From Myxococcales bacterium (GTDB lineage Bacteria > Myxococcota_A > UBA9160 > UBA4427): a stretch of 64,000 nt of DNA. Each line of letters starts with the position of its first letter. The stretch's first letter is position 1. The stretch is taken from positions 1 through 64,000 of the forward strand of contig JAAZXM010000007.1 of the NCBI GenBank assembly GCA_014240165.1, in the 5' to 3' direction. The notes below the pieces were generated by a model. The model was not told the DNA's origin and did no database searches. It saw only the letters and a list, made by a program, of their open reading frames with translations. The position numbers and the translations under genes were made by a program. This document shows, in pieces, positions 11,154-40,617 of the stretch.

Positions 11154-12272
11154 ATGAGTCCCCACCGTGAGGACAGACGCGCCGCCCGCCGCCCGATGCC
11201 AGGGCTGACCGAGCGCCAGCGCATGGTGCTTCGCGCCGTGGTCACCGCCTACGTGGCCGAGGCCGCGCCCACGTCATCGGCGATGGTTTCCCACTTGCTC
11301 CCGGTGGCGCTTTCCAGCGCCAGCATTCGCAATACCATGGCCGACCTTTCGGAGTTGGGGTTGATCGAAAAGCCCCATGCGTCCGCCGGGCGGGTGCCCA
11401 CATCAACGGGGCTGCAGCTTTTTGTTGAGCAATTGCTGAACACCCAGGAACTCGCTGATTTCGATCGGCGCTCGTTGTCCAGCGCTTGCCAGGAGGTCTC
11501 CCACGAAAGTGTGACGCGTTGGGTTTCCCGGCTGCTTTCCGAGCGAACCCATCAACTCGGCTTCGTCGTCACCCCGCGAATCGAGCGGGTTCCCATGCGA
11601 CACGTGAGCTTTGTGCGCGTGGCCCGGGATCAATTGCTCGCGGTTCTGGTTCCCGAGGCGGGTCCGATCCAGCAGCGTGTCATCGGAGATATCGGTTTTG
11701 GTGACCAGGCGGAACTCGATGCGGTGGCGGCCCAACTCAATGAGAAACTCGCGGGGCGAACCCTGGGTGAGATGCGCGCCCTGCTCGAGCGCGAATTGAG
11801 CGACCTTCGGAGCGAGGCCCGTGGCCTCTACTTCAGGATGGCCGATCTGGGTATTCGCGCCTTTGCGGCTTCTGCTCAAGAAGAAGAAGACCTGGTGATC
11901 ACCACGCGCTCGGCGTTGCTCAGCCAGCCCGAGTTCAATGATCCCGGCCGCACTCGGGCGGTCTTCGAAGCGGTCGAAACCAATCGACGCCTGCTCGATG
12001 TCATCGGCCGGGTTCTCGAGGATCCGCGGGATTCGGTCTCGGTTTCCCTCGGCGAAGAACTCGAAGAATTGGGCCTGCATAATTGTGCCATGGTCGCGGT
12101 CTCCTACGGGCATGCGCGGCCGTCTACCCTGGCCGATGATGGAATAGCGCCCGAGGAAGACCCGGCCCTGGGTGTCCTCGGGGTGATCGGCCCCAATCGC
12201 ATGGATTACGGCCGGGTGATTCCCCTCGTGAGCTATTGCTCACGATTGGTGACCGAGAAACTTTCCCCTTAG
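11154..12272 (+). CDS. hrcA: heat-inducible transcription repressor HrcA
   Basis: HrcA (372 aa), dimeric repressor of chaperone genes that binds CIRCE operators and responds to GroEL availability. The N-terminal winged helix shows LTERQRMVLRAVV, SSASIRNTMADLSELG and KPHASAGRVPT, all HrcA hallmarks. A GAF-like and dimerisation region follows. ATG 11154 has GGGAGA upstream; an N-terminal basic extension precedes the helix-turn-helix. First gene of hrcA-grpE-dnaK-dnaJ. A CIRCE-like operator is seen at groES (38142-38168). Confidence 0.95.
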   Translation: MSPHREDRRAARRPMPGLTERQRMVLRAVVTAYVAEAAPTSSAMVSHLLPVALSSASIRNTMADLSELGLIEKPHASAGRVPTSTGLQLFVEQLLNTQELADFDRRSLSSACQEVSHESVTRWVSRLLSERTHQLGFVVTPRIERVPMRHVSFVRVARDQLLAVLVPEAGPIQQRVIGDIGFGDQAELDAVAAQLNEKLAGRTLGEMRALLERELSDLRSEARGLYFRMADLGIRAFAASAQEEEDLVITTRSALLSQPEFNDPGRTRAVFEAVETNRRLLDVIGRVLEDPRDSVSVSLGEELEELGLHNCAMVAVSYGHARPSTLADDGIAPEEDPALGVLGVIGPNRMDYGRVIPLVSYCSRLVTEKLSP

Positions 12273-36104: not shown

Positions 36105-37745
36105 CTACATCATGCCTGGCATGCCACCCATTCCGCCCGGCATACCGGCAGGTGCGCCTCCGCCGCCGTTCTCGTCGGGCTTTTCGGCGATCATGGCCTC
36201 GGTGGTCAGCAGAAGGCTGGCCACACTGGCCGCGTTCTGCAGCGCCGTGCGGACGACCTTGGTCGGGTCGATGACACCGGCCTTGATGAGGTCTTCGTAC
36301 TCCTCCTTGGCCGCGTTGAAGCCATTCGCACCCTTGAGCGACTTCACCTTGTCGACGACGATGGAACCCTCGATGCCGGCGTTCTCCGAAATGAACCGGA
36401 GAGGGGCTTCGATGGCCCTGGAGATGATGTTCACTCCAGCCTGCTGTTCCTCGGGGAGCGTCAGCGCCTCGAGTGCCTTCTTCGAGCGCAGCAGAGCAAC
36501 GCCGCCCCCAGGCACAATGCCCTCTTCCACGGCGGCCCGGGTTGCATGGAGAGCATCCTCCACCCGCGCCTTCTTCTCCTTCATTTCGGTCTCGGTGGCA
36601 GCTCCGACCTTCACAACGGCAACACCGCCGACGAGCTTCGCAAGTCGCTCTTGGAGCTTCTCGCGATCGTAGTCGGAAGTCGTGGACTCGATCTGGCTGC
36701 GAATCTCGTTTACGCGGCCCTCGATGTCCTTCTTGGTCCCCGCACCATCGATGATGATCGTGTTGTCCTTATCGATGCTGACGCGCTTGGCCTTGCCGAG
36801 ATCCTTGACCGTAACGTTCTCAAGCTTGAGGCCCAGTTCTTCAGCGATGACCTGGCCGCCCGAGAGAATGGCCATATCCTGGAGCATGGCCTTCCGGCGG
36901 TCGCCAAAGCCCGGGGCCTTGACTGCCGCTACGTTGATCGTGCCGCGGATCTTGTTGACCACCAGCGTGGCGAGGGCTTCACCCTCGATATCCTCGGCGA
37001 TGATCAGAAGCGGGCGTCCCTGGCGAGCGACCTGCTCGAGGACGGGAAGGAGATCCTTCATATTGCTGATCTTCTTCTCGTTCAGGAGAATCAGGGGCTC
37101 TTCGAGAACGCATTCCATGGACTCGGGATCCGTTACGAAGTAGGGCGAGAGATAGCCACGGTCGAATTGCATGCCCTCGACGACGTCAAGCTCGGTCTGG
37201 AGGCTCTTTCCTTCCTCAACCGTGATGACGCCTTCCTTGCCGACCTTGTCCATCGCCTCGGCAATGATGCCGCCAATCGTCGAGTCGCTATTGGCCGAAA
37301 TCGTACCGACCTGCGCGATCTCCTCAGCGCTACGGGTGGGCTTGGAAAGATTTCCGAGCTCCGCGCTGATGGTCTCGACTGCTGCGTCGATGCCACGCTT
37401 CAGATCCATGGGGTTGATGCCGGCGACGACCAGCTTGCTTCCCTCGCGGAAGATCGACTGGGCGAGAACCGTCGCGGTGGTCGTTCCATCACCCGCGACA
37501 TCCGAGGTCTTGCTTGCGACCTCTTTGACCATTTGAGCACCCATGTTCTCGAACCGGTCCTCGAACTCAACTTCCTTGGCGACGGAAACTCCGTCCTTTG
37601 TCACGGTCGGGGAGCCGAAGCTCTTCTCGATAATGACATTTCGACCCTTCGGGCCGAGTGTTACACGGACTGCGTTGGCGAGTCCGTCGACACCCGCGAG
37701 AATCTTCGCGCGGGCATCTTGATCGAAGAGAATTTCTTTGGACAT
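36105..37745 (-). CDS. groEL: chaperonin GroEL (Hsp60)
   Basis: GroEL (546 aa), the ATP-driven double-ring folding chamber. Starts [19 protein letters not shown], contains [28 protein letters not shown] and GGGVALLRS, and ends in the Gly/Met-rich tail [11 protein letters not shown]. It follows groES by 18 bp in one operon and is probably under HrcA control through the CIRCE-like operator upstream of groES. Confidence 0.98.
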
Positions 37746-37763: not shown

Positions 37764-38051
37764 CTACTCGAGGATTCCGAGGACATCTTCCTCGCGAATG
37801 ATGAGATGTTCCTCGCTCTCGATGTTGACTTCGGTCCCGGCGTATTTACTGAAGAGCACGCGATCGCCCTTCTTTACTTCCAGGGGTACAAGGTTGCCGT
37901 CGTCACCCGCCTTGCCGTTTCCGGTGGCGACGACTTTTCCTTCCTGGGGCTTCTCTTTTGCTGTGTCGGGAATAATGATCCCACCTGCTGTTTTTGCTTC
38001 TTCATCGACGCGCTTGACCAGGATTCGATCCTGGAGCGGACGGATCTTCAT
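37764..38051 (-). CDS. groES: co-chaperonin GroES (Hsp10)
   Basis: GroES (95 aa), the lid of the GroEL chamber. [14 protein letters not shown] start, mobile loop with [19 protein letters not shown], and [11 protein letters not shown] in the core. ATG 38051 gives the standard length; the frame remains open upstream but enters the operator and promoter. First gene of groES-groEL. Confidence 0.98.
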
Positions 38052-38141
38052 GACTCCATATCCTCGTGTAGGGACCGGCTTGGGCCGGTCGTCATTGTAT
38101 GCGGAGGCCGCCGCGAGGGTCGCGGTGGCCGGGTTTTGGCA

Positions 38142-38168
38142 TTGGCAGTCAGGAGGCCTGTCTGCCAA
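38142..38168 (-). promoter_or_regulatory. CIRCE-like HrcA operator of groESL
   Basis: Read towards groES: TTGGCAGAC, 9-nt spacer, GACTGCCAA. The arms are complementary at 8 of 9 positions and keep the 9-9-9 geometry of CIRCE (TTAGCACTC-N9-GAGTGCTAA), matching 13 of its 18 bases. The dyad continues inward to 12-bp arms with a 3-nt centre. It begins just downstream of the predicted -10 box, the usual place for CIRCE. Confidence 0.68.
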
Positions 38169-38177
38169 ACGCGCGGC

Positions 38178-38205
38178 AATCTAGATCGGGGCGGGGCGAG
38201 GTCAA
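38178..38205 (-). promoter_or_regulatory. sigma-70-type promoter of groESL
   Basis: On the minus strand: TTGACC (38205-38200), 16-bp spacer, TAGATT (38183-38178). The transcript would begin near 38171, immediately before the CIRCE-like dyad, leaving a leader of about 120 nt. Confidence 0.62.
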
Positions 38206-38363
38206 CCGCCCGCCCTGAAATAAATTGCGATGTTCACCCGAATTGGGCGCTCAGTGCACCCTCGGCGGCTTGACTTTCGCTTTGATTTCGCGAAGCTAGC
38301 CGGCGGCAAGGCGAAATTGTGACGAAAGGCCGATTCTGGCCGGCGACCCCAATCCCCCCGAAA

Positions 38364-38406: not shown

Positions 38407-39012
38407 ATGGCACTGACCCGCCGCCAGCGCGAAGTTTACGACTACATCTGTGAATTTGTTGAGGAAAACGGCTATTCGCCCAGCCTCGAGGAGATTGGCG
38501 CACACTTCGACCTGGCCTCTGTCGCCACAGTCCACAAACATATCCAGCATCTCGTGGCGAAGGGGTTTCTCCGCAAGGCATGGAATCGCTCTCGCTCGCT
38601 GGAACCCGTCACGGAGGAGGTTTCCGAGCTTCCCACGATTCCCCTCCTGGGCACCGTGGCTGCGGGTTCCCCCATCGAGGCGATCGAGGAGCGGGGAGAA
38701 TCCATTCGGGTGCCCGCGCAGTTGATGGGCCGTCCCCAGGAGACCTACGCCCTCAAGGTACGCGGCGACTCGATGATCGAGGACCAGATTTGCGACGGTG
38801 ATCTGGTGATCGTGGAGAGCCGCTCCGAGGCCCGAAACGGCGAGACCGTGGTGGCCCTGGTGGGAGGGCACGATGCGACCCTGAAACGCTTCTACAGGGC
38901 CGGTTCCCAGGTCAAACTCGTCCCCGCGAACTCGACCATGCAGCCCATCGAGGTTGCGGCATCCGATGTCCAGATTCAGGGTGTCGTGCGGGGATTGATT
39001 CGTAGCTACTGA
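38407..39012 (+). CDS. lexA: SOS repressor LexA
   Basis: LexA (201 aa). N-terminal winged helix (LTRRQREVYDYICEFVEENGYSPSLEEIG). Self-cleavage site Ala86-Gly87 in TVAAGSP, catalytic Ser122 in RGDSMIE and Lys160 in TLKRFYR. RecA filaments on damaged DNA trigger cleavage. ATG 38407 has GAGGAGAGGAAG upstream. Divergent from groESL (355-bp gap). The leader has TTTCGC repeats but no SOS box of a type I recognise. Confidence 0.96.
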   Translation: MALTRRQREVYDYICEFVEENGYSPSLEEIGAHFDLASVATVHKHIQHLVAKGFLRKAWNRSRSLEPVTEEVSELPTIPLLGTVAAGSPIEAIEERGESIRVPAQLMGRPQETYALKVRGDSMIEDQICDGDLVIVESRSEARNGETVVALVGGHDATLKRFYRAGSQVKLVPANSTMQPIEVAASDVQIQGVVRGLIRSY

Positions 39013-39227: not shown

Positions 39228-39635
39228 ATGCTTCGAGTTACGCGCAGCATTCATTTCTCCACGTCCCTGCGCTATTGGCTGCCGGATCTCAGCGAGCAGG
39301 AGAACCGCAAGCGCTTCGGCCAGGACGCCGACCGGCACGGTCACAACTATCGGCTGGAGATTACCGTCGAGGGCGAGCCCGATCCCGATACGGGAATGGT
39401 GATCAACCTGGGTCAACTCAAGGAAGTGGCGGAGCGCGAAATCATGACCCGCTTCGACCATAAAGATCTGAACCACGACACCGACTACTTCATTCATATC
39501 CCGCCCACGCCGGAGCATTTCGCGAGCCTGATTTTCAAACTCCTGGATGAAGCCTTGCCGGAAGGATTGCTCGACCGAGTCCGCCTCCACCAATCCTCGG
39601 ATCTTTTCGTGGATGTCATCCGGGGGCCTGCATGA
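39228..39635 (+). CDS. PTPS/QueD-family protein with altered active site
   Basis: 6-pyruvoyl-tetrahydropterin synthase fold (135 aa). It keeps the zinc pair HGH (His37, His39) and the Asp-His of the catalytic set (FDHKDLNHD). However, the first zinc His is Leu14 (FSTSLRY, usually AAHRL), the catalytic Cys position is Asp33 (FGQDADRHGHN), and the pterin-anchoring Glu near the end appears to be Gln (LHQSSD). It overlaps the next paralogue by 4 bp (ATGA). GGGAGGAA precedes the ATG. Probably inactive alone; possibly a subunit partner of the next protein. Confidence 0.85.
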   Translation: MLRVTRSIHFSTSLRYWLPDLSEQENRKRFGQDADRHGHNYRLEITVEGEPDPDTGMVINLGQLKEVAEREIMTRFDHKDLNHDTDYFIHIPPTPEHFASLIFKLLDEALPEGLLDRVRLHQSSDLFVDVIRGPA

Positions 39636-40048
39636 TCTACCTCACCCGCCGTTACAATCTTGCTGCTGCGCATGTACTCTCCCAGCCCGCGTTTTCCGCC
39701 GAAGAGAACGAAGAAATTTTCGGAAAGTGTGCGAACCCGGCTGGCCATGGACATGACTATGCTTTTGAGGTCTCGGTGACCGGGTCCATAGACTCGGAGA
39801 CCGGGCAGATCATCGCCCCGGGGCTGCTCGATGAAATCTTCGAGGAAGCCGTTGCTCGCCGTTTCAGTCATCGTCTTCTGAACGACGAGGAGCCCTTTGG
39901 GAGTCTTGTGCCCACCGCCGAAAACATCGCGCGGGTGTGTCACGAAGCGCTGGCGCACGGCGTCGAAAATCGAAGTGCCGCGCGTCTAGCCCATCTTCGC
40001 GTTACGGAAACGCCGAGGAATTTTGTCGAGCAGGGAGAAATATCATGA
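39632..40048 (+). CDS. 6-pyruvoyl-tetrahydropterin/6-carboxytetrahydropterin synthase homologue
   Basis: Second PTPS/QueD-family protein (138 aa). It has zinc ligands His14 (LAAAHVL), His39 and His41 (GHGHDY), catalytic Cys33 in FGKCANPAGHGH, and the terminal Glu in RVTETPRNF. The usual Asp-His is Ser-His here (RFSHRLLND), so the catalytic Asp is missing. The defect complements that of the preceding paralogue. Overlaps both neighbours by 4 bp, indicating translational coupling with folE, whose product (dihydroneopterin triphosphate) is the family substrate. Confidence 0.88.
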   Translation: MIYLTRRYNLAAAHVLSQPAFSAEENEEIFGKCANPAGHGHDYAFEVSVTGSIDSETGQIIAPGLLDEIFEEAVARRFSHRLLNDEEPFGSLVPTAENIARVCHEALAHGVENRSAARLAHLRVTETPRNFVEQGEIS

Positions 40049-40617
40049 GCGATCCCATCGAGGGACTGGTGACCGCACTCCTCAAGGAGTTGGGTGAAGA
40101 CCCCGGTCGAGATGGATTGGAGAGGACCCCTACCCGGGTTTCCGCCGCGATGCGGCGCTTCACCGAAGGCTACGATCAGGACCCAATCTCGATTCTCAAC
40201 AACGCACTCTTCAGCGTCGACTACGACGAGATGGTGCTGGTGCGGGATATCGATTTTTACAGCCTTTGCGAGCACCATATGGTGCCCTTCTTCGGGCGTA
40301 TCCACGTGGGCTATATCCCCGACGGAAAGGTGGTGGGACTCTCCAAGATTCCCCGCCTGGTGGAAATGTTCTCGCGGCGACTTCAGGTTCAGGAGCGGTT
40401 GACGACCCAGATCGCTGAAACGATCGAGACCGTATTGAAGCCGCGTGGCGTCGGGGTGGTGGTCGAATCGAAGCATTTGTGCATGATGATGCGAGGCGTG
40501 GAAAAACAGAATTCCTACGCCATCACCAGCTCATTGCGTGGCGAGTTCGAACAGGACTCCAAGACTCGCCAGGAGTTCATGGGCTTCCTGCGCTTGAACC
40601 GGGAGCCTTTCGTCTAG
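40045..40617 (+). CDS. folE: GTP cyclohydrolase I
   Basis: FolE (190 aa) converts GTP to 7,8-dihydroneopterin triphosphate, the entry to folate, queuosine and biopterin pathways. Zinc and active-site motifs: YSLCEHHMVPFFGRIHVGYIP and SKHLCMMMRGV. ATG 40045 overlaps the stop of the preceding PTPS-family gene (ATGA). The operon supplies FolE product directly to the two PTPS-like proteins. Confidence 0.96.
   Translation: MSDPIEGLVTALLKELGEDPGRDGLERTPTRVSAAMRRFTEGYDQDPISILNNALFSVDYDEMVLVRDIDFYSLCEHHMVPFFGRIHVGYIPDGKVVGLSKIPRLVEMFSRRLQVQERLTTQIAETIETVLKPRGVGVVVESKHLCMMMRGVEKQNSYAITSSLRGEFEQDSKTRQEFMGFLRLNREPFV

Follow-up and report, generated by a model that had tools for sequence, protein, structure and literature searches.

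The groESL promoter region and its inverted repeat

The stretch of DNA analyzed in this study (the window) comprises 64,000 nt of a Myxococcales genome, labeled G000. The order refers throughout to the UBA9160-like Myxococcota, whose genomes carry G numbers; individual loci carry L numbers. On the minus strand of the window, the groES and groEL genes were found downstream of the arrangement TTGACC-TCGCCCCGCCCCGATC-TAGATT-GCCGCGCGT-TTGGCAGAC-AGGCCTCCT-GACTGCCAA (Table 1). The hexamer pair TTGACC-16-TAGATT was the sole promoter-like site in 451 bp (9/12 matches; 0.1 in shuffled sequences), and the inverted repeat TTGGCAGAC-AGGCCTCCT-GACTGCCAA, which reads in the groES sense from 38168 to 38142, starts 9 nt past the −10 hexamer and 117 nt upstream of the groES ATG. 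From the promoter we infer a transcription start near 38171 and hence a dyad position of about +3 to +30, a placement that would suit repression at initiation or early in elongation.

Table 1. Positions of the groESL promoter, the dyad, the operon genes and the presumed repressor gene within the window.
Feature	Position	Strand	Remarks
−35 hexamer TTGACC, groESL promoter	38200..38205	-	GTTGACCTC invariant in the genus
−10 hexamer TAGATT, groESL promoter	38178..38183	-	CTAGATTGCC conserved in the genus
Left arm of the dyad, TTGGCAGAC	38160..38168	-	G at CIRCE position 7, A at position 8
Spacer, 9 nt, AGGCCTCCT	38151..38159	-	Outer bases lengthen the palindrome
Right arm of the dyad, GACTGCCAA	38142..38150	-	
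groES	37764..38051	-	First gene below the predicted operator; Pfam Cpn10
groEL	36105..37745	-	Second operon gene; Pfam Cpn60_TCP1
hrcA, presumed repressor gene	11154..12272	+	No other copy found in the genome
Codons of HrcA residues 41-43	11274..11282	+	Ser-Ser-Ala (canonical Gly-Ser-Arg/Lys); N terminus of helix 2

The CIRCE element is an inverted repeat bound by a dimer of the repressor HrcA, which thereby represses the downstream genes. The dyad of the window shares its geometry, with arms of 9 nt spaced by 9 nt and complementary at 8 of the 9 positions, and the palindrome can be extended inward to arms of 12 bp with one mismatch and a 3-nt loop. Thirteen of the 18 arm positions agree with the CIRCE consensus TTAGCACTC-N9-GAGTGCTAA and five differ: the left arm carries A3G, C7G and T8A, and the right arm has the mirror images of C7G and A3G. 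The outer hexamer (TTRGCA) is thus retained except at position 3, while positions 7-8 are altered. The G at position 3 is shared with the CIRCE of Desulfovibrio (cTgGCACTC / GAGTGCcAA; PMC545781, Table 8), which nevertheless has the consensus C and T at positions 7 and 8.

The dyad was the sole match when the window was scanned with up to three mismatches (0.02 expected), and the same limit yielded no canonical CIRCE elsewhere in the window. The pattern TTGGCA-N15-TGCCAA occurred once in the 4.28 Mb assembly (none in the backwards control). Genome-wide, GCACTC-N9-GAGTGC had no exact match, and its matches with one or two mismatches (248, against 137 in the control) were mostly noise. For a wider regulon in G000, the sole other place within three mismatches (C154:4126) was not better than the control. 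The preliminary description of this DNA had proposed a CIRCE-variant operator directly after a good promoter; the geometry, the five differences and the promoter were all borne out, the span then given (38142-38205) taking in the promoter as well as the dyad proper. It had overlooked the longer palindrome and the occurrence of G at position 3 outside this lineage.

A second stem was noticed in the groES leader at 38073-38090 of the window (GACCGGC-ccaa-GCCGGTC), 39 nt upstream of the groES ATG. By eye, it is retained in the genus with changes of pairs (GACCGGT-ggat-ACCGGTC in G046), and it may be a leader RNA structure. An Rfam scan assigned no family to the groES leader, this stem included, and the window as a whole yielded only a tRNA.

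Conservation of the dyad in the order

The groES leaders of as many as 80 genomes in the order were retrieved, 71 of them with enough upstream sequence. A 9-9-9 dyad was found in 67 of these 71, at about −90 to −265. With this conservation among related groES leaders, and with no canonical CIRCE elsewhere in the window, the preliminary proposal passed both of the checks that it had set for its refutation. Across 69 sites of the order, TTGGCA varied only at its first base and TGCCA was nearly invariant, while left-arm position 7 was split between G and C (31 sites each), with A at 6 sites and T at 1. The two arms can differ at this position, the pairs including G/G (23), C/C (19), C/G (12) and G/C (7), and G and C coexist inside the order, even within one genus. 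The A at position 8, present at a minority of the sites, makes the two arms asymmetric. In the five members of the genus, TTGGCAG (left arm) and CTGCCAA (right arm) were invariant, and the conserved blocks of the genus alignment were the promoter segments GTTGACCTC and CTAGATTGCC and both dyad arms.

The exact form TTGGCANNC-N9-GNNTGCCAA occurred at 39 places in 37 of the 80 genomes (one in the backwards control). By comparison of coordinates, 38 of the 39 are groES leaders; the remaining one (G072:C45:91) lies at a contig end. HrcA went undetected in three of the four dyad-less genomes, as opposed to 4 of the 67 dyad-bearing ones (Fisher p 0.002); the four dyad-bearing genomes concerned are draft MAGs that are 82-90% complete. 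Some genomes contain extra groES copies (L050, L064, L066, L068, L155, L158 and L160) with leaders of their own that lack the dyad, the main copy having it; these duplicates seem to be outside HrcA control.

In G000, the dyad lies in the groESL promoter/leader region, and none was found upstream of hrcA-grpE-dnaK, a departure from the canonical CIRCE/HrcA system; the 69 hrcA leaders of the order gave only two weak candidates. The main, and perhaps the only, HrcA target therefore appears to be groESL, and the hrcA leaders offer no second site that would confirm the operator. Likewise, groESL is the only constant HrcA target in the delta-proteobacteria (PMC545781).

Occurrence of the G/G form outside the order

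Among 84,980 species genomes, the pattern TTGGCAGWC-N9-GWCTGCCAA was found in 53 stretches. In 22 of the 53, the exact G/G site lies 47-222 nt upstream of groES, against 0.004 expected by chance for an assumed 250-nt target and a 3.5 Mb genome. Judged by record titles, about 14 of the 22 are outside the order, in Armatimonadota, Gemmatimonadota, Actinomycetota, Chloroflexota, Acidobacteriota, Patescibacteria, a betaproteobacterium and others. Seven further stretches contain hrcA near the site, and one G/G site precedes groEL. The G7/G7 operator form therefore recurs in many lineages and is not private to one. Three further matches (L167, L175 and L208), with no detected chaperone neighbor, have an almost fully palindromic spacer (CCGCGG core) and possibly belong to a different repeat element.

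The preliminary description had suggested a lineage-specific HrcA recognition sequence. The lineage-specific part did not hold, given that G at position 3 occurs throughout the order as well as in Desulfovibrio, and that G at position 7 mixes with C in the order and recurs in many phyla; the part concerning recognition by HrcA kept some support, since the partner HrcA differs at two positions that correlate with the operator, as described below.

HrcA and its relation to position 7

As noted in the preliminary description, hrcA is located in the window; together with grpE, dnaK and dnaJ it lies more than 20 kb from the dyad. The encoded protein, the single HrcA of this dyad-bearing genome, matched PF01628 (the C-terminal domain) above the cut-off with 146.7 bits and PF03444 with 19.4 bits, slightly below the cut-off of 21. 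It also matched 1STZ, the only solved HrcA structure found (E 1.8e-19), and winged-helix elements are present in its AlphaFold model (mean pLDDT 86.8), in which helix 2 spans residues 42-48, residue 41 precedes it, and helix 3 spans residues 55-67. For numbering and domain location, a B. subtilis HrcA sequence, to be taken as approximate, served as the reference line. Residues 39-43 of the window HrcA are Pro-Thr-Ser-Ser-Ala, where most HrcAs of the C/C type have Pro-Val-Gly-Ser-Arg/Lys.

Operators were paired with their HrcAs in 61 genomes of the order (groES sites), 20 genomes from outside it with G/G sites, and a background of 54 hrcA leaders drawn from three phyla. With 105 tree tips, the Gly-Ser-Arg/Lys motif (GS[RK]) was intact in 47 of 64 cases with C/C operators as opposed to 1 of 41 with G/G operators, the G/G genomes having been sampled deliberately. 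A tree built from the C-terminal domain of HrcA favored dependent over independent evolution (LR 45.2, 4 df), with an LR of 33.9 outside the order alone and a borderline 9.3 inside it (p about 0.055); the p-values are rough, because the motif had been noticed in part of the data before the test and the tree is approximate. When the columns of the DNA-binding domain were scanned, the Arg/Lys column ranked first (LR 31.6) and the Gly column second (27.9), and the best of 252 C-terminal columns (LR 24.3) fell below both. The columns of helix 3, the recognition helix, ranked below the helix-2 motif, and helix 3 was accordingly rejected as the main correlate, although its columns may still play a part. 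The preliminary description had pointed to the recognition helix, but the best-correlated residues are those at the start of helix 2.

A series within one genus shows the same association: HrcAs with GSK and GSK accompany C/C sites, one with GSA a G/C site and one with GSS a G/G site. Exceptions were found in both directions: GS[RK] is absent from 17 of the 64 C/C genomes and intact, as GSR, beside one G/G site (L181). The motif is thus neither required nor sufficient. The HrcA of Thermotoga maritima has Ser-Ser-Gln at the motif. G004 (L093, L126) encodes two different HrcAs, with the motifs GSK and GSP, and has a groES site of the G/G type; it was excluded from the test and is a natural case of a duplicated repressor.

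Alternative explanations

HrcA could bind the dyad while the change at position 7 reflects neutral drift at a base that the protein does not read, the correlation with HrcA residues then being due to shared ancestry. This explanation bears on the specificity part only and is compatible with the operator itself. The accessible part of a report on Waddlia chondrophila gives an HrcA motif, supported by ChIP-seq and EMSA (TAGCA-N15-TGCTAA; PMC4989314), that shares the fixed outer half-site core with the window dyad and leaves positions 7-9 outside the consensus; it differs in having A at position 3, and that part of the report makes no link to HrcA residues. It hints at a precedent for relaxed inner positions. 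Drift is also favored by the mixed C/G sites, which are common in the order, and by the borderline outcome of the tree-aware test within it. In 30 Bacillota leaders, however, position 7 was always C or paired as C, which argues that the base is read there, and the correlation holds across phyla on the tree, where the two motif columns exceed all tested C-terminal columns. We consider neutral drift possible, though rather unlikely.

A much less probable alternative is that the dyad functions chiefly as RNA, forming a hairpin at the 5' end of the groESL transcript with a role in stability or thermosensing, and not as a protein site. The predicted leader hairpin is strong (−18.7 kcal/mol, z −4.4), and complementary bases occupy spacer position 10 in 78% and position 11 in 67% of the order sites, as opposed to 30% in canonical sites. 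The pairing at position 10 is, however, mostly a fixed G-C, and only 4 of the 19 sites without G-C are paired, which indicates little compensatory change at this position. The arms frequently mismatch at position 7, which is unfavorable for a stem, the outer hexamers hardly vary, and an RNA role would leave the link with HrcA residues unexplained. An added RNA role may exist beside the HrcA operator.

That the dyad is instead a LexA (SOS) operator belonging to lexA (38407-39012), which is divergent from groES, shares its intergenic region, starts 239 nt from the dyad and adjoins groES in 46 loci of the order, is highly improbable, because the geometry is that of CIRCE, the dyad does not accompany lexA wherever it is found but precedes groES, hrcA or groEL in unrelated phyla whose retrieved flanks showed no lexA, and many lexA leaders have another conserved element, TTTCGC-N5-TTTCGC, closer to lexA. 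In the window this direct repeat (CTTTCGCTTTGATTTCGC, 38274-38291, plus strand) occurs upstream of lexA and only once in the genome; the form ACTTTCGC was found in 30 of the 46 lexA leaders of the order, and the repeat is a candidate LexA autoregulatory operator. Downstream of lexA, on the plus strand at 39228-40617, are a 6-pyruvoyl tetrahydropterin synthase gene, a similar-looking ORF (39632-40048) and a GTP cyclohydrolase I gene.

Proposed function and implications

The best joint explanation, which we hold with high confidence, is that the dyad is the groESL operator of HrcA, a CIRCE element, and that the replacement of C by G at position 7 is tied to the loss of GS[RK] in helix 2 of HrcA. 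Judged from the sequences compared, the inverted repeat is very probably a conserved HrcA binding site in which the position-7 pair has been flipped. Its geometry, its placement, its partner and the G at position 3 are known from CIRCE; the variant lies in the sequence, with G for C at position 7 and G for A at position 3 in both arms and A for T at position 8 in one. In the literature searched, mostly open-access, neither the G7 form nor a connection between it and HrcA residues was found described.

In the proposed mechanism, an HrcA dimer would occupy the two half-sites just past the promoter and block groESL transcription. HrcA is maintained in an active state by GroE (Mogk et al. 1997, as summarized in PMC8533110), which also stimulates HrcA binding in Campylobacter (PMC8533110). 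Upon heat, unfolded protein would draw off GroEL, or HrcA itself would unfold, the repressor would be released and groESL would be induced. The outer hexamer TTGGCA/TGCCAA would form the fixed part of the half-site, with position 7 having moved from C to G. Loss of GS[RK] would relax the specificity at this position, where the motif residues may make direct contact, and the operator could then drift among C/C, C/G and G/G; the mixed C/G sites and the single-genus series fit a relaxed rather than a switched specificity. In its general form, the proposal is that the Gly and the Arg/Lys at the N terminus of helix 2 set the position-7 specificity of HrcA, that loss of either relaxes or switches the preference, and that C/C operators have moved repeatedly to G/G, in some cases via mixed sites. 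We regard this proposal as about equally likely to be right or wrong. The operator prediction is solid and the specificity hypothesis moderate.

CIRCE has been called highly conserved across bacteria (PMC545781), and scans with TTAGCACTC-N9-GAGTGCTAA would miss the G7 form. A safer pattern for annotation is TTRGCA-N15-TGCYAA combined with a groES or hrcA context. Moreover, the repeated replacement of C by G at position 7 provides a natural series on the joint change of a repressor and its operator, in which two HrcA residues can be named.
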